DNA from: Deltaproteobacteria bacterium RIFCSPLOWO2_12_FULL_60_19
GTDB lineage: Bacteria > Desulfobacterota > Binatia > UBA9968
NCBI GenBank assembly: GCA_001798595.1
Contig: MGSS01000057.1
Span: forward strand, 62,001 to 126,000
Direction: 5' to 3'
DNA: 64,000 nt
In this document: positions 22,768-44,994 of the stretch, one piece after another
Layout: the number at the start of each line of letters is the position of its first letter
Position numbering within the stretch: position 1 is the stretch's first letter
Notes under the pieces: model-generated
Told to the model about the DNA's origin: nothing
What the model saw: the letters and a program-made list of their open reading frames with translations, nothing else
Databases searched by the model: none
Translations under genes and position numbers: made by a program

Positions 22768-23850
22768 ATGCCGGAACCAAAGATTTCAACGCAGCAGATT
22801 GCGGAGAAAAAAAGTTCGTACCGCAAGTGGATCGATGCGGAGGGTGTGCCGCTGATCGAAGGATTTTTTCTCGACGACATCGCCGCGGCGCCGCTTTCGC
22901 CCTGGGACCGCGTCGGCGGCAATGCCGTGCGCGTATGCCTGGAAGGCACGGGCGAGACGAACGATGCCTATATTTGCGAGATTCCGCCCGGGAAGTCCCT
23001 CAAACCGCAAAAGCACATGTTCGAAGAGCTGGTCTATATCGTGAGTGGCCGGGGGGCGACGACGATGTGGCAGGACAACGGCCCCAAGCGGACCTTCGAG
23101 TGGCAGGAAGGATCGCTGTTTTCGCCGCCGCTCAACACGAATTACCAGCACTTCAACGGCAGCGGCACTCAGCCCGCGCGCTATCTCGCGGTCACGAGCG
23201 CGCCGATCATGATCAACCTCATCCATAACATCGACTTTGTCTTCAACTGCGCGTACGTCTTCAAGGATCGCTTTAACTCCGAGGACGATTACTTTTCGAA
23301 GGAGGGCACCTGGTACGCGGGCAGGGTCTGGGAGACCAACTTTGTGCCCGACGCGAAGAACCTGAATCTCATCGAGTGGAAGGAGCGTGGCGCCGGCGGC
23401 TCCCAGGTCCGCTTCCAGATCGCCGAGAATACGATGTGCGGCCATGTCTCGCAATTTCCCGTCGGCACCTACAAGAAGGCCCACTACCACGGGCCGGGCG
23501 CTCACGTGATCATCTTGAGCGGCCAGGGCTACTCGCTCATGTGGCCCAAGGGCCAGCCGATCCAGCGATTCGATTGGAAGCCGGGCAGCATGGTCGTTCC
23601 GCCGGCGGATTGGTTCCACCAACACTTTAACTCCGGCCCGAACCCCGCGCGCTATCTCGCGCTCCGCTGGGGCAGCAAGAAGTACTACGGCATCATGGGC
23701 GAGGGCGGGGGTCAGACCGACGTGGACGTGAAACTCGGCGGCCATCAGATCGAGTACGAAGACGAGGATCCAATGGTGCGGCGCATATTCGAAGAGGCGT
23801 GCGCCAAGTCCGGCGCCAAGAGCCAGATGGAGAAGTACTATAAGAAGTGA
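22768..23850 (+). CDS. Two-domain cupin protein
   Basis: 360 residues with two cupin barrels. Domain 1: SLKPQKHMFEELVYIVSGRG followed by the second motif SLFSPPLNTNYQHFN (about residues 72-135). Domain 2: YKKAHYHGPGAHVIILSGQG and MVVPPADWFHQHFNSGPNPA (about 235-295). The His-rich motifs in both halves would hold a metal. The sequence is of the kind annotated as cupin or ethanolamine-ammonia-lyase-activating protein in catabolic clusters. An AGGAGG-like site precedes the ATG and it follows the binding protein by 21 bases. Reaction unknown. Confidence 0.8.
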   Translation: MPEPKISTQQIAEKKSSYRKWIDAEGVPLIEGFFLDDIAAAPLSPWDRVGGNAVRVCLEGTGETNDAYICEIPPGKSLKPQKHMFEELVYIVSGRGATTMWQDNGPKRTFEWQEGSLFSPPLNTNYQHFNGSGTQPARYLAVTSAPIMINLIHNIDFVFNCAYVFKDRFNSEDDYFSKEGTWYAGRVWETNFVPDAKNLNLIEWKERGAGGSQVRFQIAENTMCGHVSQFPVGTYKKAHYHGPGAHVIILSGQGYSLMWPKGQPIQRFDWKPGSMVVPPADWFHQHFNSGPNPARYLALRWGSKKYYGIMGEGGGQTDVDVKLGGHQIEYEDEDPMVRRIFEEACAKSGAKSQMEKYYKK

Positions 23851-29166: not shown

Positions 29167-30003
29167 ATGCCGAACGTTAAACTACCGACGGGCGTCGATC
29201 TCTATTACGAGTCTCACGGTCAAGGAGAGCCGCTGATCCTGGTGCCGTCGACCGCCTACTCCTGCGAGGTTTGGAAACCTTCGCAGATGCCGCTCGCGCA
29301 ATCGCTCCATTTGGTTATACACGATCCACGGGGATGCGGCCGCTCGGTAGCCAGGCAAAACGTTTACACGATTGAACAAATGGGGGCGGATATCGTCGCG
29401 CTCATGGATCACCTGAAGATTCCCTCGGCCCATCTCTTAGGCCACTCCATGGGAGGGCGCATCGCGCTCGCCGCCGCGCAGAATTTTCCGGGGCGGGTGA
29501 AGAGTTTGATTATGGCGGCGAGCGGCTCGGGCCCGGCGTCGCGGCCCGGCTCGGATTGTATCACCGGTCTGCCGCATCGCCTCGTCTACGAGCTGGCCCA
29601 CATGGGTTTGGAGAAAATGATTCGTTATGAAGTCTGCGAGTCCGATACGTTCTTTACGAAGGACTACCGGGATCGCCACCCCGATAAAGTCGAAGAATTT
29701 TTCCGCCTCGCCTGGGCGACGCACGCCAGGCTCTCGGAGTTCGTCCATATCGTCATCGCGCGCCACAATTTCGAAGGGACGCACCGGCTGAGTGACGTGC
29801 GAGTCCCAACGCTGGTGGTGATCGGCGATCATGACACCGGCAGGAGCAATCACCTGGCGCAAGCGGAGGTTCTCGTCAAGAGAATTCCCGGCGCCGAGCT
29901 GAAGGTTCTAAAGGGACAATCGCACGGCTTTTTCTGGCAAGCGGCGGAGGAAACCAACGCGCTGATTCTCGATTGGGTCAAGAATCACGGCGGCGCGAAA
30001 TAG
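29167..30003 (+). CDS. Alpha/beta hydrolase
   Basis: 278 residues. The fold signature is ESHGQGEPLILVPSTAYSCE (oxyanion region), LLGHSMGGRIAL with the nucleophile Ser (about residue 96), Asp in VVIGDHDTG and His in LKGQSHGFFWQ. It resembles 3-oxoadipate enol-lactonases and meta-cleavage hydrolases. Preceded by AAGGGGGAAAAC. End of the plus-strand catabolic run; the next 219 bases (30004-30222) hold no gene, only a tract related to 31840 (see repeats). Confidence 0.86.
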   Translation: MPNVKLPTGVDLYYESHGQGEPLILVPSTAYSCEVWKPSQMPLAQSLHLVIHDPRGCGRSVARQNVYTIEQMGADIVALMDHLKIPSAHLLGHSMGGRIALAAAQNFPGRVKSLIMAASGSGPASRPGSDCITGLPHRLVYELAHMGLEKMIRYEVCESDTFFTKDYRDRHPDKVEEFFRLAWATHARLSEFVHIVIARHNFEGTHRLSDVRVPTLVVIGDHDTGRSNHLAQAEVLVKRIPGAELKVLKGQSHGFFWQAAEETNALILDWVKNHGGAK

Positions 30004-33618: not shown

Positions 33619-34860
33619 ATGCAAAGAAAAAGTTCCAAACAAATCAAACTCGTAAGCGCTGATCCGGCTAAATCGGCGCAGACGTCAGGTCTCCGTTACG
33701 TGACGGATAAGCTTCCGGGAATCAGGCGAGAGCGAACCGGCAAAGCGACGCGTTACTATGATCCGAAAGATAGACCGCTGCAGGACGTGGATGAAATTTG
33801 TAGAATCAAAGCGCTGGCGATCCCGCCGGCCTGGAGGGATGTATGGATCAGCCCTTTTCCCGACAGCCATCTACAGGCGACGGGACGGGATACGAAAGGG
33901 CGAAAACAATACCGCTACCATCCGCGCTGGCGCGAGGTCCGCGACCAAACAAAATACGACCGCATGATGCTCGTTGGGGAGAAGCTGCCTGCGCTTAGGG
34001 CTCGGGTATCCAAAGACCTGGCCCGTGCTGGATTACCGCGGGTCAAAGTCATCGCGACCGTCGTTAAGCTCCTCGAAACCACTCTGATCCGCGTCGGCAA
34101 CGAAGAGTACGCCCGGGAAAACCAATCCTTTGGCTTGACCACCATGCGTAACAAGCACGTTAGGATCAATGGATCGAAAATCCGCTTTCGCTTCCGCGGC
34201 AAGGGCGGCGTGGGACATGATCTGGAGTTCGACAACCCGCGATTGGCGCGAATTGTGAAACGCTGCCAGGATTTGCCGGGACAGGAGCTGTTTCAATATG
34301 TCGATCAAAACGGCAAACCGGGCACGGTCGAGTCAAGCGATGTCAACGCATATCTGCGCGAGGCGACTGGAGACGACTTCACCGCCAAGGATTTTCGCAC
34401 GTGGGCCGGCACTGTATTAGCGGCCCGGGCCCTTCGAGAAAGCGAATATTTTGATTCGAAGGCTCAGGCCAGGCGGAACATCGTCAAAGCCGTTGAAAAA
34501 GTAGCCAGGAGGCTGGGCAATACGCGGGCCGTCTGCCAAAAGTGCTATATCCATCCTGCAGTGGTGAATTCGTATATGGATGGATCTTTGCTCCAAACCC
34601 CGGACCATCGTGCGCAGCGGGCGACAGCCGGGTCGCCGAGCGATTTACATCCCGAAGAGGCTGCGGTTATGGCCGTACTGGAGCAACAAATGGCGAGAAA
34701 ACCGAAGGTCGACAAGGTAAAAGTCAAAACTAAAAAGCCAAAAAATGATCTCGTAGCACGGGACCACAAATTGGTCGGGAATGCTTTTCCTGAACCGCAT
34801 TCCTTTCCTCTCGGATTACGTCCGTCCAATCCCGGAGCTGGTGTAGGATCAAAGATGTGA
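33619..34860 (+). CDS. DNA topoisomerase IB (poxvirus/eukaryotic type)
   Basis: 413 residues from ATG 33619 (TTG at 33598 is possible). Relaxes supercoils through a 3'-phosphotyrosyl link. Catalytic positions: Arg158 in LIRVGNEEYA, Lys195 in RFRGKGGVGH, Arg260 in KDFRTWAGT and the nucleophile Tyr319 in CYIHPAVVNSYMDG. The N-terminal domain LRYVTDKLPGIRRERTGKAT is also family-typical. The final residues (about 405-413, GAGVGSKM) are encoded by the first copy of a dispersed repeat, so the tail may have been altered. Frequently found with Ku/LigD-type genes elsewhere; none here. Confidence 0.92.
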   Translation: MQRKSSKQIKLVSADPAKSAQTSGLRYVTDKLPGIRRERTGKATRYYDPKDRPLQDVDEICRIKALAIPPAWRDVWISPFPDSHLQATGRDTKGRKQYRYHPRWREVRDQTKYDRMMLVGEKLPALRARVSKDLARAGLPRVKVIATVVKLLETTLIRVGNEEYARENQSFGLTTMRNKHVRINGSKIRFRFRGKGGVGHDLEFDNPRLARIVKRCQDLPGQELFQYVDQNGKPGTVESSDVNAYLREATGDDFTAKDFRTWAGTVLAARALRESEYFDSKAQARRNIVKAVEKVARRLGNTRAVCQKCYIHPAVVNSYMDGSLLQTPDHRAQRATAGSPSDLHPEEAAVMAVLEQQMARKPKVDKVKVKTKKPKNDLVARDHKLVGNAFPEPHSFPLGLRPSNPGAGVGSKM

Positions 34861-34874
34861 CGGGATCGGGAACC
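34846..34874 (+). repeat. Short copy of a dispersed direct repeat
   Basis: GGATCAAAGATGTGACGGGA and the next nine bases are shared with the long copy at 37267 and, less exactly, with 35533. It overlaps the stop codon of the topoisomerase gene. Confidence 0.75.
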
Positions 34875-35013
34875 AGGATTTGGCGAAGAAAGTGGGGTAG
34901 GGCCAGCAAGCCGTCCCTCCTCAACCCGTTCGTCCGCAATGCCCGGACTTCCTTCGCTTTCGCGGCGCGTCGCTGAAGGAATCTAATACGGGGTCGCGAG
35001 CGGCGCGGCTCTG

Positions 35014-35478
35014 CTACTCACAACGGCCGATTCCCTGGCGTAGGTTCGCGGGGATCGTCAGGGTAACGGTAAAGCCCTGAGAGCCGACAAGACCCGGCAC
35101 CACCAGCACCACGTCCTTGGTAACAGTCGTGGGAAGCTGGTTTGGGGTCCAGGGCGCCCGTTGAATACCGACACACTTACAATCCATGGTGCAGGGCATA
35201 AGATCCAGCTCACGGGGAAGCTCGAGGGGAGCCGTTGGATTGGCGCCGAAGATGGCATTCGTGATGGTAGCCCTCTGGGCGGCCGTTGGACCGGGCGCAA
35301 TGCCGGTTATGTTTGCGGCGACAGCCGCCGCCCACCTGAATTCCATACGGACGCACGGGAGTTGCCGGCATGAGAACTGGACCTGAACGGGCTGACCTTT
35401 GACCGATCCTTCGTCGCCGCCCTGTTTCCGTGTGGTCCGGCCTCGCCGTGATGCTTTCTTTTTATCTTGCCTCGGCAT
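35014..35478 (-). CDS. Hypothetical protein with basic N-terminus and Cys clusters
   Basis: 154 residues, no recognised family. The first 25 residues are strongly basic (MPRQDKKKASRRGRTTRKQG). Cys residues occur as CRQLPC and MPCTMDCKC, and the C-terminal half is beta-rich (VVLVVPGLVGSQGFTVTLTI). A reading frame of this length in a region of repeats, with a GAAGGGAGG-like site before its start, suggests a real but unassigned gene. It lies between the first and second copies of the direct repeat. Confidence 0.45.
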   Translation of the reverse strand: MPRQDKKKASRRGRTTRKQGGDEGSVKGQPVQVQFSCRQLPCVRMEFRWAAAVAANITGIAPGPTAAQRATITNAIFGANPTAPLELPRELDLMPCTMDCKCVGIQRAPWTPNQLPTTVTKDVVLVVPGLVGSQGFTVTLTIPANLRQGIGRCE

Positions 35479-35532
35479 GGATTGGTTCCTCCCTTCGCCG
35501 TGCGTCGTTGACCCGCTCCAGCCGTTGATGCG

Positions 35533-35728
35533 GGATCAAAGATGCGACTGGATCGGGAGCGCGGCCTATGTTACATCGGCAAAATACGGCCTAGATGAAT
35601 AGGACAAATTTATGGGTTGTGTCAAGCGGAAAAAAACCGGAAAAAAGCCGGAAAGCCGCGGGCCGTCTGGATTTTAGATTCGTCGGCACTTGCGGTTGAG
35701 GAAACATTGTTTAGATTCTCGTGTCTGA
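35533..35728 (+). repeat. Left copy of a ~190-base direct repeat
   Basis: Shares with 37267-37457 the head GGATCAAAGATG, the block CGGCCTAGATGAATAGGACA with AATTTATGGG, the GTGTCAAGCG-poly(A) tract, GGGCCGTCTG and ATTTTAGATTCGTCG. The two copies enclose the secreted phospholipase/nuclease-like gene. Together with flanks this accounts for the 315-base gap 35479-35793. Confidence 0.85.
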
Positions 35729-35793: not shown

Positions 35794-37188
35794 TCATTGG
35801 ATCGGCAACCACATGAAGCTGGTGACCTTAGGCTGGTCGTTGACTCTCACTGCGCCAACAACAAGTACTTCCCGCGGCAGGTGAATGAAGCGGGCGAAAG
35901 CTAAGTAGGTGCCTGATGTCACCCCGGGCGTCACTGTATACCTGGATGGACCTGTCACCCCGGCTCGTTCGATAAGCTCGCTCAGGGCCGGTCCTCGCCT
36001 TGAGCCGCCGGCAATCGCATTTTGTGCAAACGTTATGAGTTCATCACACTTGGGTCCCTTGTCCCTCTCTTGTTGAATCTTCGCGGCAATTTCGCACACC
36101 GCGAGCGGTTGATGCGCGCCACGGCCGTCGACGAACCCTTTCCCGAGAAAGAACTCGAACAGGATGGGGTAGAGTTTCGGACATGAGCCATCGGCGTGCA
36201 ATGCGCGCTCCAACGCCAGAGCGGCCAAGCTGTGATCGATGAGCTCGCGCAGGTTCGATACCTGCTGCTGAGTCAGGGCCGAGAAGAATCGCTTGAACAG
36301 ATCTGCAAACTGCTGTGGGATATCTGAAGAGAAAGGGCTGTCGTTGGCCACGATCCCGTTCCAGATTTGCACTAGCTTTTCGAATGCATAGGGGACACAG
36401 GGACGAGCACCCGGCTCGCAGTCCGGGAGACTGATCCCTTGTAGAAAGTTGCGATCCAAAAAACTCTCTTTCTTGAACCATTCGTCCTTCTGCCATTTTG
36501 TGCGTGCGTCCGCGAAAGATTTGACTTTCGGCGCGAGCACCTTCCACGTAGCCAGAGGTTTATTGTTCCGCGCTGAGGACACAAGCACCTCAAACGTCAT
36601 CCTGGCCATTTCAGGAACATCCTTGTCGGACCAAAAATACGTGAGGTCGGCGAGGTGGCAGGACCAACCGCCGCGTTTCGCCGAATGCCCCCAGCCCAGC
36701 TTCGGCTCGCAAAGCGGAGCAATATCCGGCACGCCCTGATGCGACCAGGAGTCTTGCAGGACATGCAGGTAGCGACCCAATGCCAAAAGAGACGGCTCTA
36801 AACCATCCAAGTCGGGAACTTTTCTCACGCTCCCATGCTGCCAAGCAGTGGCCGGGGTTACGGCTCGTTCGGAGGGAATCCAAGGCGGGTCGCGTCTTGA
36901 TGGGAAGTGATTGTCGTGGACTGTCGCCGAGCCAGCCGAGTCCTTGCCGACACAGGATGCCATAACGGTTCCATGGACCGGTCCAGTTATCCAGCTGTCA
37001 TCGATTTCTTGATTTCCCCGCGCGATTAGCTCGGCTTCTTTTTGCGGGTCGTAACCCGCGTTGATGGCGAGCCATTTTGTCAATCCGTAATGAACATCTG
37101 ACTCCCAAGCCTGCGCGCCGAAAAAGGTTCCCGAGAACAGGGTGAGGGCGTGCAAGAGCGCGCATGATATGTACAATTGTCGGTTCAT
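35794..37188 (-). CDS. Secreted zinc-dependent phospholipase C / S1-P1 nuclease-like protein
   Basis: 464 residues with a signal peptide (about 1-27, ending FGAQA). The mature N-terminus WESDVHYGLTKWLAINAGYD carries the Trp and His expected of the S1-P1/PLC zinc site. Further candidate ligands are HDNHFPS (about 92), the H..D...H set in LGRYLHVLQDSWSHQG (about 141-151) and GWGHS. That arrangement resembles the trinuclear zinc site of bacterial phospholipase C and S1/P1 nucleases. The C-terminal half has no recognised motif. Single gene between two direct repeats, so probably acquired. Exact substrate (lipid or nucleic acid) unknown. Confidence 0.65.
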   Translation of the reverse strand: MNRQLYISCALLHALTLFSGTFFGAQAWESDVHYGLTKWLAINAGYDPQKEAELIARGNQEIDDSWITGPVHGTVMASCVGKDSAGSATVHDNHFPSRRDPPWIPSERAVTPATAWQHGSVRKVPDLDGLEPSLLALGRYLHVLQDSWSHQGVPDIAPLCEPKLGWGHSAKRGGWSCHLADLTYFWSDKDVPEMARMTFEVLVSSARNNKPLATWKVLAPKVKSFADARTKWQKDEWFKKESFLDRNFLQGISLPDCEPGARPCVPYAFEKLVQIWNGIVANDSPFSSDIPQQFADLFKRFFSALTQQQVSNLRELIDHSLAALALERALHADGSCPKLYPILFEFFLGKGFVDGRGAHQPLAVCEIAAKIQQERDKGPKCDELITFAQNAIAGGSRRGPALSELIERAGVTGPSRYTVTPGVTSGTYLAFARFIHLPREVLVVGAVRVNDQPKVTSFMWLPIQ

Positions 37189-37266
37189 GTTTGCGCAACT
37201 GACCTTTCTTAAAATATTCCAAAAAACAAAAGCCTCGGCTGGGAGACAAGTCCGCGCGATGGTGTG

Positions 37267-37457
37267 GGATCAAAGATGTGACGGGATCGGGAAACCCAGC
37301 CTAAGTTGCGTCGCCAATACTCGGCCTAGATGAATAGGACAAATTTATGGGCCGTGTCAAGCGAAAAAAAGGGCGCGAGTCGGAAGCCCTGGGCCGTCTG
37401 AATTTTAGATTCGTCGCCGATTGTGTTCAGGAGTGGTTGTTAAAACTCTCGCGTGTG
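37267..37457 (+). repeat. Right copy of the ~190-base direct repeat
   Basis: Same blocks and order as 35533-35728 with scattered substitutions. Its end comes within 14 bases of the stop codon of the DNA methyltransferase gene. Covers most of the 282-base gap 37189-37470. Confidence 0.85.
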
Positions 37458-37470
37458 ATCCCGGCGTCGA

Positions 37471-38349
37471 CTATCCGGTGACCTCGAGGTCGACAAGTTT
37501 CGGAATTGCAGACTTCGCCATAGTGAAGTACTTGGAGTCCAATTCTACCCCGACGCTTTTTAGGCCAAGGTACGTCGCGGCGGCGATCGTTGATCCTGCT
37601 CCCATAAAAGGATCCAACACAACGCCCTTTCCAAGAGGGAGCGAAGCACGTACCAAGAAACGCATTAGCGCCTGTGGCTTAAGCGAGGGATGGTTCGCAA
37701 CAGCGCGCTCAGGTCGGCGAGCGGGCGGAACTTGCAGCAGGTCCGGGAAGGGTGTGTCTTCTGAAGGGCGGCGAAGTGCACCAGTACCAAACCTCTTCAG
37801 ATTTTCAATGACACGCCCGACACACGGCTTTCGAAACAGGAGCCAAAGCTCAAAGCATGAACGTGGAATTACCGAGACGTCACGGTATTGTTTATCTCCA
37901 AACTTAGGACGGTCACCGCCCCGAAGTGTCTTTACTACTCGAACTATTTGCCCACGCGCCTCAAATCCGGCCATACAAAACGCTTGGGCTACAAGATATG
38001 ACACCAAACACTGCGAAGACAGCATCACATGTGCGCCCGGCACGAGAACGCGGAACAGTTCTGGCGCAAGGCGAAGGTGGAAAGCCAGCACTCCCATCCG
38101 GTCATGACCGTTAAGGACAGTGAAACGCGGCATGGGTTGTCGCTTTGCGCCATCGAAGGCATTGGGAAGGCGCCAGATACCCCCGCGCCCTTTACGTCGT
38201 TTATTCAGTTCCGGCGCTGTATATTCAACAAGTCCGAACGGCGGATCTGTCACTACAGCGTGATACGAGTTTGCTCGCTCGGATCCCAGCCATTCTAGGG
38301 AATCCGCGTTATAGATCGTGTAGTGTGAATTGCGATACCACTTCCTCAT
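37471..38349 (-). CDS. DNA methyltransferase, beta-type amino-methylase
   Basis: 292 residues. The catalytic motif IV is TDPPFG (34-39) and the AdoMet-binding motif I DPFMGAGST follows near residue 246, i.e. the IV-then-I order of beta-class N4-cytosine/N6-adenine methyltransferases. The end VGVELDSKYFTMAKSAI is the usual motif II region. The target recognition part between residues 60 and 220 shows no motif. The start overlaps the DUF262 stop by 4 bases, so it is the third gene of an operon with a nucleotidyltransferase and a DUF262 protein. No restriction endonuclease is adjacent. Recognition sequence unknown. Confidence 0.88.
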   Translation of the reverse strand: MRKWYRNSHYTIYNADSLEWLGSERANSYHAVVTDPPFGLVEYTAPELNKRRKGRGGIWRLPNAFDGAKRQPMPRFTVLNGHDRMGVLAFHLRLAPELFRVLVPGAHVMLSSQCLVSYLVAQAFCMAGFEARGQIVRVVKTLRGGDRPKFGDKQYRDVSVIPRSCFELWLLFRKPCVGRVIENLKRFGTGALRRPSEDTPFPDLLQVPPARRPERAVANHPSLKPQALMRFLVRASLPLGKGVVLDPFMGAGSTIAAATYLGLKSVGVELDSKYFTMAKSAIPKLVDLEVTG

Positions 38350-39434
38350 TTCTTTTCCCTAAGGAACGGTCTTATGATCTCAGCGAGCGCCTCATGTCGA
38401 TCCATGCGTCGTGCCTTATCGTTCGATCCTTTTTCTATGGCTCTTGCATACTTCCTTGAAGCGGCACTCGTCTTCGCCGTAGGCTTCTCAAGACGTTGAT
38501 TAACCTCTCCGCCGAATTCTACCAACTTCGCAGGAAGCGCCTTCATGGACCCTTGTGGCAGATCGTATTCCTGAAGGACATTGCCTAGCGCGACAAACAG
38601 ACTGTAGTAGTCAGCGCGATTGCCCCAGCGTGGGACATCCGCAATCGTTGGGAAGAGGCGTCTAATCGTGTCGAGTGTCTTGGCGAACTGCCGCCTAGTC
38701 CTATTTTGTTCCGGAAAATCATCCTCGTACTGTTCATACTGCTCGTAATACTCGTCAATGATCTTGGCCGCGCCACCCTGTGGGCCGTGAAGAAGACCAA
38801 TTAAAAGATCGCTCATCATTTCGATGTCGGCCATGCGGCGGATCGCTGCTGGGCTTACGATCCGGTTTACCACCCAGTACTCGTCGTCCGCCAACTGTTC
38901 CGATAACTTTGCAAACGGGCCGTGGTAAGTTGCGTTTCGAAGCTCTTGCGCCTTGAGGGGAAGAGTGAATTTGTTTAATCTTTTAAAAACATCTTCGACC
39001 TCTCTTCGGTCCTCGGTATAGAGAAAACGAACGCAAACGTCGTACTGAAAGAACCGCTTACGCTCTTCGCCGGTAACTTCAGCGAAGGTCTTGCCCTTGT
39101 GAATTGATGTCGCTGGTAATGCTTCGAGCGCAAAAAGATTGCTATCCCCATCTTTCTGATCCTGTTCGCGCTCAATCCCAACGAACTGCAGGACGGTTCG
39201 CAATCGCTGTTGCCCGTCAACAACGCCGTATTGTTCGGTACCATCCTCCGCCTGTGTGACCTGGACATAAACCTCGGGCATCGGAATTTCCATGAGTATA
39301 GATTCGATCATAAAGCTCCGCTGTTTGTCACCCCACACAGGTTTCCGTTGAAACGGCGGCCTGAGTTCAAGACGACCGGTCTTGTACTGATCTTGGAACC
39401 AGGAGATAGATTGTGGACGGGAAGCGTGTTTCAT
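38346..39434 (-). CDS. DUF262 (GmrS/ParB-like) protein
   Basis: 362 residues from ATG 39434, preceded by GAGGAG. Typical DUF262 elements are LELRPPFQRKPVWGDKQRSF (residues 22-41), IPMPEVYV (50-57), and the NTP-binding DGQQRLRTVL (73-82), then FKRLNKFTLPLKAQELRNAT (about 170). In type IV restriction GmrSD and in other systems this domain hydrolyses NTP and may act as a nuclease; the HNH (DUF1524) half is missing here. It lies between the nucleotidyltransferase and the methyltransferase, coupled to both (13-base gap and ATGA overlap). Confidence 0.88.
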   Translation of the reverse strand: MKHASRPQSISWFQDQYKTGRLELRPPFQRKPVWGDKQRSFMIESILMEIPMPEVYVQVTQAEDGTEQYGVVDGQQRLRTVLQFVGIEREQDQKDGDSNLFALEALPATSIHKGKTFAEVTGEERKRFFQYDVCVRFLYTEDRREVEDVFKRLNKFTLPLKAQELRNATYHGPFAKLSEQLADDEYWVVNRIVSPAAIRRMADIEMMSDLLIGLLHGPQGGAAKIIDEYYEQYEQYEDDFPEQNRTRRQFAKTLDTIRRLFPTIADVPRWGNRADYYSLFVALGNVLQEYDLPQGSMKALPAKLVEFGGEVNQRLEKPTAKTSAASRKYARAIEKGSNDKARRMDRHEALAEIIRPFLREKK

Positions 39435-39447
39435 GGACTGCTCCTCA

Positions 39448-40059
39448 TTATTCGGACAACGTTTTTCGCAGCACCGCAAGACTATCGAGATGGTAGAGTT
39501 CCGCATGCCGCCAAGTGCGATAGAGACGGCCCGTGATGTCTTCGTGCCTTCGACTAGGATATCTTGATGCCTCCTTTAGCGCATTGAACCATCGAGTGTT
39601 GAAATCCAGCACTGGCCTAGCCTTTACTCCGAATATTTTACTATCCAGCCTTATTTCCAAGGGTGTTAACCATCCGGTGTAGAGTTCCCGCCTTCGTTTT
39701 TCCAGCCAGCCGCCAAATTGTTGGGTGATCGGCGGCCTCGGGTATGCAGCTTCTAGCAGGGCCTCCCACAGTTGGTCGAAGAGGGAGGGGTTGACGACTA
39801 CTACGTCGATGTCCGAAGTATCAACAAAACCTTTCAAACTATACCCTGGCTTCATGCTGAAGCCGAATCGAGCACTGCCGACTACTCTAATAGCAGAACG
39901 GGAGACACCGAGCCTTACAACAAGTTCATCGCGGAACTTATCCCAACCCGTCGGCTGGGGTTCAAAGACGAAGGGTGTCCCATCGTCGTGCAAGCACGGA
40001 TCGAGCAACTGTACATCGGTCTGTTGCTGAAGCAGATGACGAAACTCCTCGGAAGTCAT
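39448..40059 (-). CDS. Minimal nucleotidyltransferase-fold protein
   Basis: 203 residues. The pol-beta nucleotidyltransferase signature is present: Gly61-Ser62 in VVGSARFGFSMKP and Asp83/Asp85 in TSDIDVVVVN, which would bind two metal ions and an NTP. The rest (FGGWLEKRRRELYTGWLTPL) has no HEPN or PAP domain. The length and layout differ from CD-NTases of CBASS systems, so assignment to cyclic-nucleotide signalling is not supported. First gene of the operon with DUF262 and methyltransferase genes. Possible roles: nucleotidylation of a partner or RNA, or a toxin-type function. Confidence 0.78.
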   Translation of the reverse strand: MTSEEFRHLLQQQTDVQLLDPCLHDDGTPFVFEPQPTGWDKFRDELVVRLGVSRSAIRVVGSARFGFSMKPGYSLKGFVDTSDIDVVVVNPSLFDQLWEALLEAAYPRPPITQQFGGWLEKRRRELYTGWLTPLEIRLDSKIFGVKARPVLDFNTRWFNALKEASRYPSRRHEDITGRLYRTWRHAELYHLDSLAVLRKTLSE

Positions 40060-40347
40060 ATCTTATGCAATCGCGAGCCGCGATGGTTTGATAAAATTAC
40101 CGTAACCAATCCCACGCAGCGCCGTTGTGCAATTAGAAAGAAAAGTGGGTGTAATATCCTTCATTCTGAATAGCTTGTCAACTTTGTCTTTCCCGAGAGT
40201 GGCTGCCACTTTTGCGGCCTATCTCCCTATTTGCCGGAGAATAAAAGGGAACGTCTTGCAATCCTACATCTGTATTTCTAAGCGAGTGAACCAGGTTGCG
40301 TGTTACCAAGGCCGCAGGGGAGCGTACACGCCGCTTTTGGATAGCCG
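40060..40347. other. No gene seen
   Basis: 288 bases upstream of the nucleotidyltransferase operon, AT-richer than the surroundings. It should contain the promoter of that operon, but no convincing -35/-10 pair or operator could be singled out. Confidence 0.4.
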
Positions 40348-40425
40348 TCATCTTCCCGCCCAGAGTTTGTCGAAAAAGCTGCTTTTCTCCAATCCGTCGA
40401 GGTAGCGCCGGTCGATAAGGTTTTG
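40348..40425 (-). pseudogene. Tail fragment of an NMT1-type substrate-binding protein (A)
   Basis: Reads NLIDRRYLDGLEKSSFFDKL followed by WAGR and a TGA at 40348. This is the typical C-terminus (D.RY...LE.SGF..K) of the NMT1-type binding proteins. No upstream part is present. Confidence 0.6.
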
Positions 40426-40453
40426 TGGCCGAGAAACGATAAAAAGGACGAAA

Positions 40454-40660
40454 CTATTTGCCGCCATAGGCGGCGGTCACCTTTTCGATGAAGCCGCTTT
40501 CGTCCAATTTGCGAACGAAGCGCGGCTCGATAAGCTCTTCGATTCTCACGCCGGTCACCTTGGGGTTGTGGAGCGCCATGAGCCTCTGGATGTTGCGCAT
40601 CGCCTCAAGGGAAGGGTAGGGCTTTCGTTCCACGGTCGGCAAGTATTGGATAGCCGTCAT
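40454..40660 (-). pseudogene. Tail fragment of an NMT1-type substrate-binding protein (C)
   Basis: 68 codons: KPYPSLEAMRNIQRLMALHN, then EPRFVRKLDESGFIEKVTAA. Matches the last 60 residues of binding proteins such as the one at 4423 (VEDLMDDRIARKVEKEGF), but has no leader, no ligand-binding lobes and only a chance ATG that overlaps the stop of the next remnant. Would not give a functional protein. Confidence 0.65.
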
Positions 40661-40740
40661 TTTGCCGCGCGGGGTTTGTCGAAGAAGCCGCTTTCCTCCA
40701 GTCCGTCGATGTAGCGCCGGTCGATGAGGCGTGTATTAAA
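40657..40740 (-). pseudogene. Tail fragment of an NMT1-type substrate-binding protein (B)
   Basis: Reads RLIDRRYIDGLEESGFFDKP followed by RAAK and a stop at 40657. Nearly the same as remnant A, and both are followed by TGACGGCTATCCAA, showing they are copies of one ancestral tail. Upstream (40741-40860) is empty. Confidence 0.6.
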
Positions 40741-40860
40741 GGATAAAGGATGAACAAGAAGGCGTGAAAGAGAGGCAATAGGCAACGGTTAGGCGGAAAC
40801 TGTGTGAGGAACATATCTTGGGCTTCTTGAGCTTTAGTAACGTATGTGTTACCGTCGGCA

Positions 40861-41190
40861 ATGATCGAGGTTCTCGAATATCTGGCGACCGACGGCGGCA
40901 GTCCGTACCGCAAATGGTTTAACAGCCTGAACGCTCAGGCTGCTGCCAAGATAGCGATAGCCGTCACGCGGATTGAGCAGGGCAATCTGTCCAACGCAAA
41001 AGGCGTTGGAGCCGGGCTGCAGGAATACTCCATCGATTTCGGACCTGGCTATAGAATTTATTTCGGCAGGGACGGTGACCGTCTTGTAATTTTGCTCGGT
41101 GGCGGAACCAAGAAGCGACAACAGGAAGACATCAGCCGGGCGCAAGCCCTATGGATTGACTATAAACGACGCAAGAAAAAGGAGAATTGA
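40861..41190 (+). CDS. RelE/HigB-family toxin (phage-derived Gp49-like)
   Basis: 109 residues from ATG 40861: MIEVLEYLATDGGSPYRKWF, AKIAIAVTRIEQGNLSNAKG, LQEYSIDFGPGYRIYFGRDG, LVILLGGGTKKRQQEDISRA. The GYRIYF and LLGGGTKKRQ segments are diagnostic of the HigB/addiction-module killer family that cleaves mRNA at ribosomes. The antitoxin gene begins two bases after its stop. In this order (toxin first) the pair is typical for HigBA-type modules. Confidence 0.85.
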   Translation: MIEVLEYLATDGGSPYRKWFNSLNAQAAAKIAIAVTRIEQGNLSNAKGVGAGLQEYSIDFGPGYRIYFGRDGDRLVILLGGGTKKRQQEDISRAQALWIDYKRRKKKEN

Positions 41191-41191
41191 G

Positions 41192-41515
41192 ATGCCGCTA
41201 ACCAGAGACTTTAAAGACACGATTCAGGAGCGCGCTCGTCGCGATGCGGCGTTCCGCGAGGCCCTTTTGAAAGAGGCTATCGATGCCTTGCTCTCGGGAG
41301 ACGTGGAAACCGGCAAGACCGTCCTGCGCGACTATATCAACGCCACCGTGGGTTTTGACGCGTTAGCCACGGTCACCAAAAAATCGCCGAAGAGCCTGAT
41401 GCGCATGCTTGGCCCTAAAGGCAACCCTCGAGCTCGCAACTTCTTTGAGATCGTCGCCTACCTTCAGAAAAAAGAAGGCCTTCACCTAAAAGCCATAGCG
41501 AGGCGGGTGGCGTGA
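41192..41515 (+). CDS. HigA-like antitoxin / transcriptional regulator
   Basis: 107 residues beginning MPLTRDFKDTIQERARRDAA. The C-terminal part has the helix-turn-helix-like FDALATVTKKSPKSLMRMLG PKGNP segment and FEIVAYLQKKEGLHLKAIAR of HigA-type addiction-module antidotes. An in-frame extension back to 41099 overlaps the toxin and is rejected. Expected to bind the promoter upstream of the toxin and to neutralise it. Confidence 0.82.
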   Translation: MPLTRDFKDTIQERARRDAAFREALLKEAIDALLSGDVETGKTVLRDYINATVGFDALATVTKKSPKSLMRMLGPKGNPRARNFFEIVAYLQKKEGLHLKAIARRVA

Positions 41516-41581: not shown

Positions 41582-42004
41582 CTAACCCGTCCTGACTCCG
41601 AGAACCGAAAAGCCGAGGCTGCGGGCGGCGGTGCCGAGCTGGGCATCGTGGGTCAATAACAGGTCAATCGGCTCGGCTTCCCGTATCGCCAGAGCCGTGG
41701 CCAAATGAATCGCGTCCAGAGTTCCCACAACGGTTGGGAAGGTCTCGCTTGCGCGCTGTAGGATTCTTTCGGTAAGCGGATGGATCGCCAGGGTTTCGTG
41801 CACAACCCGGATGTCACTTACTAGATCGGCCACTTCCTGATCGGAAAGATCCCCGGAAAGCCGGAGCCGGTCAACAGTCCTGAGCGCCTCGACGCGCCAT
41901 AGATTACTGCTGAAAGCCCTTTGCCATTTGCCCCACACCCCGACCGGATTCGGCTCCCGCAAGAGAATCCGCAGAATCACCGAAGTATCGACGTAGGCGG
42001 TCAT
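41582..42004 (-). CDS. PIN-domain toxin, VapC-type
   Basis: 140 residues: MTAYVDTSVILRILL gives the first acidic residue Asp6; further acidic positions are DAIHLATAL (about 96) and LLTHDAQLG (about 116), which form the PIN-domain RNase site. The Glu in the middle (WRVEALRT, about 38) completes the set. Coupled to the upstream antitoxin by a 4-base overlap. Cleaves RNA, commonly initiator tRNA in VapC family members. Confidence 0.87.
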   Translation of the reverse strand: MTAYVDTSVILRILLREPNPVGVWGKWQRAFSSNLWRVEALRTVDRLRLSGDLSDQEVADLVSDIRVVHETLAIHPLTERILQRASETFPTVVGTLDAIHLATALAIREAEPIDLLLTHDAQLGTAARSLGFSVLGVRTG

Positions 42005-42252
42005 CTACGCTCACGGTCTTCGAGAAGCGTGCGCACCGCGGATACCGAGCGCCGAGGCTTGACTCCCTTCACTTTTTTAAGATCTTTCAAAGGCCGGGAG
42101 GGCTCCGATATCTGGGCATCCGGCGCCGACGCAGGAAGGATTCGAGCGACCCGGTGGCGATGAGACGTCACCACGATTTCCTGCCCTTCCTTCACTAAGC
42201 CAAGATAATAGCTTAGTTTCTCTTTCAAGGCGGCTACATTCACCAAAGTCAT
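42001..42252 (-). CDS. Phd/YefM-type antitoxin
   Basis: 83 residues: TLVNVAALKEKLSYYLGLVK then EGQEIVVTSHRHRVARILPA. This is the N-terminal Phd/YefM fold with the typical VTxHxxxVARI strand, followed by a disordered toxin-binding tail. Partner of the VapC-type toxin that follows. The start is ATG 42252; a second reading frame upstream has no support. Confidence 0.83.
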   Translation of the reverse strand: MTLVNVAALKEKLSYYLGLVKEGQEIVVTSHRHRVARILPASAPDAQISEPSRPLKDLKKVKGVKPRRSVSAVRTLLEDRERR

Positions 42253-42291: not shown

Positions 42292-42510
42292 GTGCATCGA
42301 CAACGGTTCCGCTTACCCCAGAGCGTCTGCGGGTTCATGGAGCGAGAGCACACACGCCGTTTGCGGTTAAACCCGTATCGTGAAATCGCGCGTGCGTGTT
42401 GGCAGGAAATCCCCGAACATTTTCCGCATGTTGCGGTGGATGGGTTTGTGGTCATGCCGAACCATATTCACGGCCTCCTTAATGTAGGGGCGCCATTCAT
42501 TGCGCCCTAG
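42292..42510 (+). pseudogene. Truncated REP-associated tyrosine transposase (RAYT)
   Basis: 72 codons from GTG. Residues YREIARACWQEIPEHFPHVA and VDGFVVMPNHIHGLLNV contain the Y1_Tnp histidine-hydrophobe-histidine motif HIH of transposases that process REP palindromes. The N-terminal part before LNPYREI and everything after the HIH motif, including the catalytic Tyr, are missing. The last residues GAPFIAP are encoded by a REP-like palindrome, into which the reading frame runs. A decayed element, not an active enzyme. Confidence 0.75.
42484..42510. repeat. REP-like palindrome at RAYT remnant
   Basis: Arms GTAGGGGCGC and GCGCCCTAG around ATTCATT. It supplies the stop codons of both convergent reading frames: TAG for the transposase remnant and TGA for the methyltransferase, whose last residues (PRAQ) are encoded by it. 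Confidence 0.8.
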
Positions 42511-44206
42511 GATGCTCCTTGAACCCGCCCACGAGCGCTCTTCTGCCGCTTTCCCGGAAGCATTGTACGTTTTCAAACCCGGCTTCTCTCAACCACTTCA
42601 TCTGCTCCTTCAGTGACGGAGTCATCCTATCGAAATTCAGGAAACAACCGCCGGGTTTCACCAGCGCAAAAGTCTCGCTGTAGATCGCCCGAATGATGTC
42701 GGGTGAGCGGACATTATGGATCGCTATCGAAGATACGACGGCCTCAAAAGGCCCTTTGATCTTCCGACTCCAGCCCCGCTTACTAAAATCACAAAAGACA
42801 TACTCAAAGCGTCCTTTGAGGCGTTCCATACGCTTCCGGCCCAGCCTAGCCATCTCCTCCGATCCATCCTGGCATACGGCAGTGGCGTTGGAAAAATGGC
42901 TCAGGAGATACTGCGCTAACGCCCCATATCCCGCCCCTAGATCTAAGATGTTCATTGGGGCCTCCTGGTCATAGGGCAGGACTTTCGCTATCAAACGGAA
43001 GGTTTCCTCTCGATCGACTTCCCTTTGATCTTGCCGTTCCGCCCACTGGGAAACGTACTTTCGCGAATCCCAATCGTGGTGGTCCCAGGGGTCCCATATT
43101 CTCGGCATCGGCATTCTCCTCTTCAATTTTGGTATTTTCTTTCGACACGGACTCCGGTCCAGCGCCCAGGAGGCGAAGGTAAAGATATACTGCGTGCCCA
43201 TGTTCACCATCACCACCCGAAACAGGTGAAAGGCGACCACCAGCGGGACGCTGATCTGCAGCGCCTGCGCGGCGATGGTCATCTCCGCCAGTCCGCCGGG
43301 CGCGGTGGCCATGATCATCGTGGCGATCGGCAGGTCGAAAGCCCAGGCCAGGATCGCCGCGGCCGCGACCGAGGCGAGCAGGATAAAAAAAGAGTTCAAC
43401 AGCGCGAACGGGATGAAGAGCCTGTGGCGCGCAAAGAAGGCGCGCTCGTAGCGCGCTCCCAGCACCAGCCCGAACATGAGCTGGGCGAGGTCCGTCAGGC
43501 CGTGGGGCACGGCGGAAAGTTGAATGCCGCTCATGGTGAGCGCGGCGCCGAAGAAAATCGGCATGAGCAAATAGCCGTTGTGAAAGCGATAGCGCTCCGA
43601 GACCTCGCCCAACACGCAGCCGAAGGCGAGCCACGGCACGAGGATCAAAATATCCAGCGGGATTGCGGGGCGGTACGCCGAGGCTACGAGCGGGATGCCG
43701 CCGTAAGTCAAAGCGAACGGGATCAGGATGACGACGACCGAGACGCGCAAGCTGTGGGCGACCGCCACCGGCGCAACCTGCGCGCCGTAGCGCTCCGCCA
43801 GCACGGCCATCGACATCGCCCCGCCGGGGATCGAGGCGAAGAACGTAGACTTGCCATCCACGCCGGAGGCCCGGCTCAAAGTGAGCGCGCCGAGGCCGCC
43901 GACCACGAAAACCGCGACTGTGGCCGCGACGATGGCTGGGAGATTGCCGCCCAACTCCGCCACCACCATCGGCGTGAAATAGAGCGACACCGCCGAGCCG
44001 AGGATCACCTGGCCCATTTGCCGGGCAAACGGAGGCGAGTGCATCCGCACGCCCAGCAGGTTGAGCGCGGCGACGGCGACCATCGGACCGATCATCCAGG
44101 GAATCGGCGTGCGGAGGACGGCGAACAGGTAGCCCGCGGGGATACCGACGGCAAGGGCCTTGACGATGCCGGGCAGCCGCACCCGCAGGTTGGCGAACTC
44201 GTTCAT
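42497..44206 (-). CDS. AbrB-type membrane protein continuous with a class I methyltransferase
   Basis: 569 residues. Residues about 1-350 form the duplicated AbrB/ammonia-monooxygenase-regulator-like membrane domain with about ten helices (IPAGYLFAVLRTPIPWMIGP, FFASIPGGAMSMAVLAERYG, MIMATAPGGLAEMTIAAQAL). After SPCRKKIPKLKRRMPM a SAM-dependent methyltransferase of about 203 residues begins at MPRIWDPWDHHDWDSRKYVS, with motif I ILDLGAGYG and post-motif CFLNFD. No stop separates them. But a Shine-Dalgarno (AGGAGA) precedes internal ATGs at 43114 and 43108, so the methyltransferase is probably also or only translated on its own. ATG 44206 is used as the start; ATG/GTG upstream (44335, 44218) would overlap the SDR gene. 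Confidence 0.78.
   Translation of the reverse strand: MNEFANLRVRLPGIVKALAVGIPAGYLFAVLRTPIPWMIGPMVAVAALNLLGVRMHSPPFARQMGQVILGSAVSLYFTPMVVAELGGNLPAIVAATVAVFVVGGLGALTLSRASGVDGKSTFFASIPGGAMSMAVLAERYGAQVAPVAVAHSLRVSVVVILIPFALTYGGIPLVASAYRPAIPLDILILVPWLAFGCVLGEVSERYRFHNGYLLMPIFFGAALTMSGIQLSAVPHGLTDLAQLMFGLVLGARYERAFFARHRLFIPFALLNSFFILLASVAAAAILAWAFDLPIATMIMATAPGGLAEMTIAAQALQISVPLVVAFHLFRVVMVNMGTQYIFTFASWALDRSPCRKKIPKLKRRMPMPRIWDPWDHHDWDSRKYVSQWAERQDQREVDREETFRLIAKVLPYDQEAPMNILDLGAGYGALAQYLLSHFSNATAVCQDGSEEMARLGRKRMERLKGRFEYVFCDFSKRGWSRKIKGPFEAVVSSIAIHNVRSPDIIRAIYSETFALVKPGGCFLNFDRMTPSLKEQMKWLREAGFENVQCFRESGRRALVGGFKEHPRAQ
43106..43124 (-). promoter_or_regulatory. Internal ribosome-binding site for the methyltransferase part
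   Basis: On the minus strand GAAGAGGAGA is followed by ATGCCGATGCCG. The spacing fits initiation at 43108 (nine bases) better than at 43114. It decides that a separate 203-residue methyltransferase can be made from within the long frame. Confidence 0.65.
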
Positions 44207-44289
44207 CAAGGCCGTCACTTTATTACCGTTGCGCGCGATTCGCCACCCAATGACGGGAATTTTTCTTAGTCCTTTCTCCTCGCACCGGG

Positions 44290-44994
44290 CTAGAACTTCT
44301 CCGACCACGGCCGCAATTCGACGTAGGAAGCCCATGCGCTACGGTGCTGGCGGTGCAGGTGGAGATAGGTTTGAGCGATGGCGTCCGGGTCCAGCCAACC
44401 GTCGGGACCGCGCGACTGGAGTTGCTCCGAACCCCGCGTGGGTTCGTAGATGCCGCCGTCAATCACGACCTGAGCAACATGGATATTGCGGGGTTGCAGC
44501 TCGCGCGCCATGCTTTGGACGAGGCCGCTCAAACCCAACTTGCCCATGGCGAAAGACGCCGAGTGCGGAAAACCTTTGATGCTTGCCGATGCGCCGGTGA
44601 ATAGAATCGTTCCATTCCCCGCCGAAATCATCCGTTTCGCGGCCGCCTGTCCGACGAGAAATCCCCCGTAACAGGTGACCAGCACGGCTTTCCGGACCGC
44701 TTCAGGATCCACGTCGGTGATCGGACCGCGCACTCGACTGCTCGCGTTGTAGACGACGAGATTGGGTTCGCCCAGGTCTCCGGTCACCGAGCTGAATAGG
44801 TTCTCCACTTCCTTTGGAATCGTCGCATCGCAGGGATAGACGCGTCCGTCGATCTCCTTTGCCAGCCTGTCCAGTTTTTTGGCGTCGCGGGCGGCCAAAG
44901 CCACCTTCATGCCTTCCTTATGGAACAACCTGCCAAGCGCCGCGCTGAGCCCCGGCCCGGCGCCGACGATCAACGCAATTTCCCGTTGAGCCAT
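44290..44994 (-). CDS. Short-chain dehydrogenase family protein, Phe in place of catalytic Tyr
   Basis: 234 residues. Rossmann motif GAGPGLSAALGR (11-22), NAS (83-85, usual NAG), FTGASAS and then SFAMGKLGLSGL with Phe148 and Lys152 where classical SDRs have YxxxK. A subfamily with FAxxK and the following ARELQPRNIHVAQVVIDGGI is known. NADP specificity is suggested by Arg in LAARDAKK. Located downstream of the hydrolase gene (51-base gap) in the minus-strand catabolic operon. Substrate unknown. Confidence 0.85.
   Translation of the reverse strand: MAQREIALIVGAGPGLSAALGRLFHKEGMKVALAARDAKKLDRLAKEIDGRVYPCDATIPKEVENLFSSVTGDLGEPNLVVYNASSRVRGPITDVDPEAVRKAVLVTCYGGFLVGQAAAKRMISAGNGTILFTGASASIKGFPHSASFAMGKLGLSGLVQSMARELQPRNIHVAQVVIDGGIYEPTRGSEQLQSRGPDGWLDPDAIAQTYLHLHRQHRSAWASYVELRPWSEKF

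Follow-up and report, generated by a model that had tools for sequence, protein, structure and literature searches.

AbrB-type membrane proteins (PF05145) carry an internal duplication (TIGR03082), and class I SAM-dependent methyltransferases are represented among solved structures by 3dtn (MM_2633), CysG(N-16) and BelI. The fusion of neighbouring genes through a lost stop codon is a general class of event, in which the modules are complete, the linker is the leader of the downstream gene and the internal start is kept. Here we describe such an arrangement in a 64,000-nucleotide window (the whole stretch of DNA analysed) from Deltaproteobacteria bacterium RIFCSPLOWO2_12_FULL_60_19. The protein matches AbrB-type proteins over their full length and in both repeats, but carries a 203-aa methyltransferase behind the AbrB module, which none of the AbrB-type relatives examined does. 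Its second module is like 3dtn, CysG(N-16) and BelI in sequence and fold, yet here it can also be read as the C-terminal part of a longer chain. It shares the three hallmarks of stop-loss fusions and differs from that general class in being confined to one genome, with a product predicted from sequence. A literature search at the level of bibliographic entries found no account of an AbrB–methyltransferase fusion. We consider it probable that the locus is a one-genome, tail-to-head fusion of two ordinary genes that arose by rearrangement and loss of the abrB stop, with the start of the enzyme kept.

Architecture of the fused frame

The frame and its parts are as follows.

42497–44206, minus strand: fused coding sequence, from the open reading frame list and its translation
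43142–44206, minus strand: AbrB-family membrane protein module, M1–R355 (PF05145, TIGR03082), matching its relatives to their stop
43109–43141, minus strand: linker K356–P366 (KKIPKLKRRMP), read through, from the alignment and a low-confidence stretch (351–375) of the structure model
43116–43121, minus strand: Shine-Dalgarno-like GAGGAG in the sequence, 7 nt before the ATG at 43108–43106
42497–43108, minus strand: predicted class I SAM-dependent methyltransferase with its own ATG at 43108–43106 (MPRIWDPWDHHDW..), from PF13649, the conserved start and the model fold

One uninterrupted minus-strand frame runs from the ATG at 44206 to the stop at 42497 (569 aa plus stop), confirming the first-pass annotation, which had reported no stop between the AbrB domain and the methyltransferase. 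The maximal open frame (42497–44335, minus strand) encodes 612 aa counted from its first ATG, in frame at 44335; judged by where its closest AbrB relatives begin, the true start is likely the ATG at 44206. A short-chain dehydrogenase gene (44290–44994) lies upstream of abrB. Along the frame, a complete AbrB-family membrane protein is followed by about 12 mostly basic codons and a complete class I methyltransferase. Neither module is damaged and no decay is visible at the joint, as would also hold for a selected fusion. Stretches of 12 codons sampled from the neighbouring 13 kb are stop-free in ~70% of cases, and one frame in three is in register, so that a joint would be open and in frame by chance in ~23%. 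The open frame is thus real yet not improbable (~0.23, about one in four) once the stop had gone.

The AbrB module matches PF05145 at E 5.7e-69 (232.9 bits against a cut-off of 29.2, profile positions 1–312 of 314) and TIGR03082 with 203.3 bits against a cut-off of 94.7, in two stretches, which places it in the family by curated cut-off over the full profile. The stand-alone length typical of AbrB relatives (~355–400 aa) is exceeded here by an open frame of 613 codons. Full-length relatives are 66–84% identical. The nearest (L003/L031, 83–84%) ends in ..LGRSPRR-stop, where the fused frame reads ..LDRSPCRKKIPKLKRRMPMPRIW. Homology extends to about R355 (43142), and the aligned stop of the nearest relative falls on codon K356 (43141–43139). 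Relatives with a readable end, a set from which one that runs off its contig (L009) and one broken copy (L045) were put aside, stop from 3 residues before to ~35 after the joint, most of them within 11. Simple hydropathy gave nine segments above threshold, compared with ten helices in the first-pass annotation.

The methyltransferase module matches PF13649 at E 8.1e-12 in the fused frame and 1.1e-12 alone (49.0 bits against a cut-off of 27). Together with the fold, this assigns it to the class I enzymes, with catalytic activity as a prediction. In a structure model built on 19 sequences (mean pLDDT 60 overall), the methyltransferase is confident (pLDDT mostly >85 from residue 381), the stretch 351–375 has low confidence and the AbrB half is poor. 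The nearest solved structures, by sequence and by Foldseek, are the three named above (3dtn at E 5.6e-17 by sequence), and the leading Foldseek matches are methyltransferases. These matches go no further than to indicate an ordinary class I enzyme as the second module. The GC content is 0.66 in AbrB and 0.54 in the methyltransferase, a step that argues weakly for foreign origin because the methyltransferases of 7 of 9 relatives also lie at 0.49–0.55. An origin from phage or plasmid was rejected: viral contigs held no relative of the methyltransferase and plasmids only distant ones (the best 8 of 25 records are 23–31% identical). An Rfam search gave no match.

The joint and the internal start

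The linker corresponds to the leader of the separate methyltransferase gene, Shine-Dalgarno sequence included. The ribosome-binding site and ATG that had been placed at the junction are indeed there (GAGGAG at 43121–43116, ATG at 43108–43106). Most methyltransferase relatives begin exactly at the position of this ATG with M(P/A)K(L/I)., for example MPKL or MAKI; the exceptions are of more divergent types (L024, L026 and L044). The internal start is therefore well supported, being the conserved start of the stand-alone enzyme. A second in-frame ATG at 43114 is poorly spaced from GAGGAG, and a consensus search found no promoter for the methyltransferase within abrB. Under the positive-inside rule, a basic linker would hold the downstream methyltransferase on the cytoplasmic side, and the fusion is therefore predicted not to be obviously harmful.

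In the joint itself, 20 of 21 bases (43131–43151) recur in the same genome at C80:25812–25832 (L052; E 0.015), near a histidine-kinase-like open frame. A dispersed repeat was rejected here, as the genome has only two sites within two mismatches; the recurrence is probably chance.

Relatives and neighbourhood

We searched for fused homologues at four levels, and every homologue found was separate. Across the class, matches at E<=1e-50 occurred in 25 of 148 genomes, this one among them, and none elsewhere covers both modules (0 of the 147 other genomes); within the family the count is 0 of 24 other genomes. At the level of the order, PF05145 was found in 24 of 35 genomes with 20 near-full-length places, where the open frames measure 358–454 aa in the 19 others and 613 here. 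In a phylum sample of 395 genomes, PF05145 was present at E<=1e-30 in 19, none of the other 18 with a fused homologue. A 575-aa frame in one genome (G387) was considered as a second fusion and rejected: AbrB is C-terminal in it, the frame ends soon past AbrB, and the remainder is an N-terminal stop-to-stop extension with no methyltransferase recognisable by eye. A conserved AbrB–methyltransferase fusion, which would occur in more than one species, was rejected on the basis of these searches.

We also asked where the two genes lie in relatives. Some match was present in 49 of 97 genomes, many to other methyltransferases. Among the other genomes, 23 have AbrB matches, 18 have close methyltransferase matches (21 places) and 16 have both. 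The two genes are on different contigs in 13 of these 16, and on the same contig in three, 23.6 kb, 1.80 Mb and 2.40 Mb apart. They were never adjacent in the 16 genomes, where different contigs of drafts do not prove distance. An unfused intermediate, with the genes as neighbours and a stop between them, was not seen among the compared genomes, which include no congener.

The side downstream of the methyltransferase contains the following features.

42488–42507, no strand: imperfect palindrome GGGCGCCATTCATTGCGCCC, supplying the last methyltransferase residues and the stop
42292–42510, plus strand: weak REP-associated tyrosine transposase-like fragment (NF047646, E 0.0012, 18.8 bits against a cut-off of 80)
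42252–41582: Phd/YefM and PIN pair
40846–41190: RelE/ParE-type toxin (TIGR02683), paired with an open frame (pair span 40846–41515)
22768–23844, plus strand: cupin-domain gene, context outside the fusion, with best matches near the separate methyltransferase in three genomes (G023, G020 and G008)

The transposase-like fragment abuts the 3' end of the methyltransferase, and relatives of the enzyme terminate a few residues earlier than the palindrome-derived end seen here. By this comparison, the 3' end has apparently gained a few residues from the palindrome beside the fragment.

The cupin matches in G023, G020 and G008, which belong to one genus, are 69–71% identical and the best of 17–27 paralogues per genome. 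Their distances downstream from the separate methyltransferase are 1.3, 4.3 and 3.2 kb, respectively, and the two genes occupy opposite strands, as they do here. The distance in the window is ~19 kb, with a variable stretch between that holds toxin–antitoxin, DNA methylase and GmrSD-like genes and repeats. As the 3' side of the methyltransferase is thus partly conserved, abrB would be the arriving partner and the break would lie 5' of the methyltransferase, at the joint. The compared abrB relatives have none of the flanking genes of the window abrB as close matches. For the cupin-domain family itself, a search of seven genomes at E<=1e-60 gave between 8 and 27 members in each, and 18 in this one.

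Within the variable stretch, the two toxin–antitoxin-like pairs adjoin each other (40846–41515 and 41582–42252), and diverged repeats of 53–84 nt occur in three copies at 40337–40729, one of them overlapping the end of a short open frame. A DNA methylase (PF01555; PADLOC MTase_II, E 5.8e-90) adjoins a GmrSD_N/NsnA-like gene at 37471–39506, possibly as a restriction-type defence locus, and a 203-aa open frame at 39448–40059 lies beside them. Direct repeats at 34830–35692 and 37251–37423, spaced ~1734 bp, flank a 464-aa gene (35794–37188), as if this segment were duplicated or mobile.

In one further genome (G017), one 24.6-kb contig carries the methyltransferase, preceded at ~0.23 kb by the best match to the hydrolase gene of the window at 29167–30003 (75%), and also an abrB tail at a distance of 23.6 kb. 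This genome has two abrB-tail copies, L045 (G017:C468) and L029 (G017:C18), with one gene broken into several frames. The presence in G017 of an abrB tail, an aldo/keto reductase, a hydrolase and the methyltransferase on one contig suggested one inversion of 13 kb or one deletion of 23 kb as the cause. This reading is tentative at most, since G017 alone suggests it and the gene orders call for at least two steps; the presumed ends of such an event have no long inverted repeat.

Origin and meaning of the fusion

We propose that a rearrangement set abrB directly before the methyltransferase gene, which would have retained both its ribosome-binding site and its ATG. Loss of the abrB stop may have come from the breakpoint itself, from a substitution or from a small indel. 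Ribosomes would continue from AbrB via the short basic linker into the methyltransferase to give a product of 569 aa. Initiation at 43108 would still yield the normal 203-aa enzyme, beside which the fusion would be a second product. Such a fusion may be near neutral. Because relatives keep both genes apart, it has the appearance of a chance local event and not of a novel protein type. The first-pass annotation had left two possibilities: a true, membrane-tethering fusion that also starts internally, or mutational loss of the AbrB stop. The absence of fused genes from the 147 other genomes and the aligned stop at K356 favour stop loss, and the internal start is conserved, while purposeful tethering finds no comparative support.

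The main rival is an error at the joint, since the genome is a draft and a single base or join decides: a base may be wrong near 43125–43145, or the contig may wrongly join two places. We regard this as unlikely, while granting it a substantial chance. The assembly has 162 contigs, and the fusion is a singleton; in a passage of one published study (PMC3711429), singleton frame anomalies are treated as likely recent indels or sequencing errors. It had been suggested that single-base shifts upstream of the junction would create a stop, which holds for one shifted frame (TGA at 43125–43123, 14 nt before the methyltransferase ATG), but the other stays open to a TGA at 42971–42969, within the methyltransferase. 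The flanks of abrB and of the methyltransferase occur together in no relative, G017 loosely excepted, and the 21-nt stretch that recurs with one mismatch on another contig would also fit a false join. Against an error, the joint is far from the ends of its 131-kb contig, each module is present once in the genome, and no substantial genomic repeat covers the joint, which gave one full match plus short, near-chance matches. The A runs there are merely 3–4 long, and G017 has an abrB tail and the methyltransferase on one contig.

A selected bifunctional protein, in which AbrB tethers the methyltransferase to the membrane, perhaps to act on the AbrB substrate or at the membrane, is in our judgement improbable. 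It would account for the open frame with two complete modules, the basic linker predicts a cytoplasmic C-terminus, and two starts would give tethered and free forms. However, fused homologues are absent from the class and phylum searches, the two genes are not neighbours in relatives, and the linker is identical to the leader of the separate gene. We think it slightly less probable still that this is a newborn bifunctional protein, in which a small-molecule methyltransferase is anchored to the membrane through the AbrB-type protein and the internal start gives a free form; if so, it would be a very young fusion with its separate parts still present.

If the joint is real, the fusion of two ordinary genes proposed here offers a clear snapshot of gene fusion, in which each part is whole and the former start signal survives but the stop has disappeared. 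There is a warning in it as well, as automatic annotation would call a membrane-tethered methyltransferase that is absent from the relatives.
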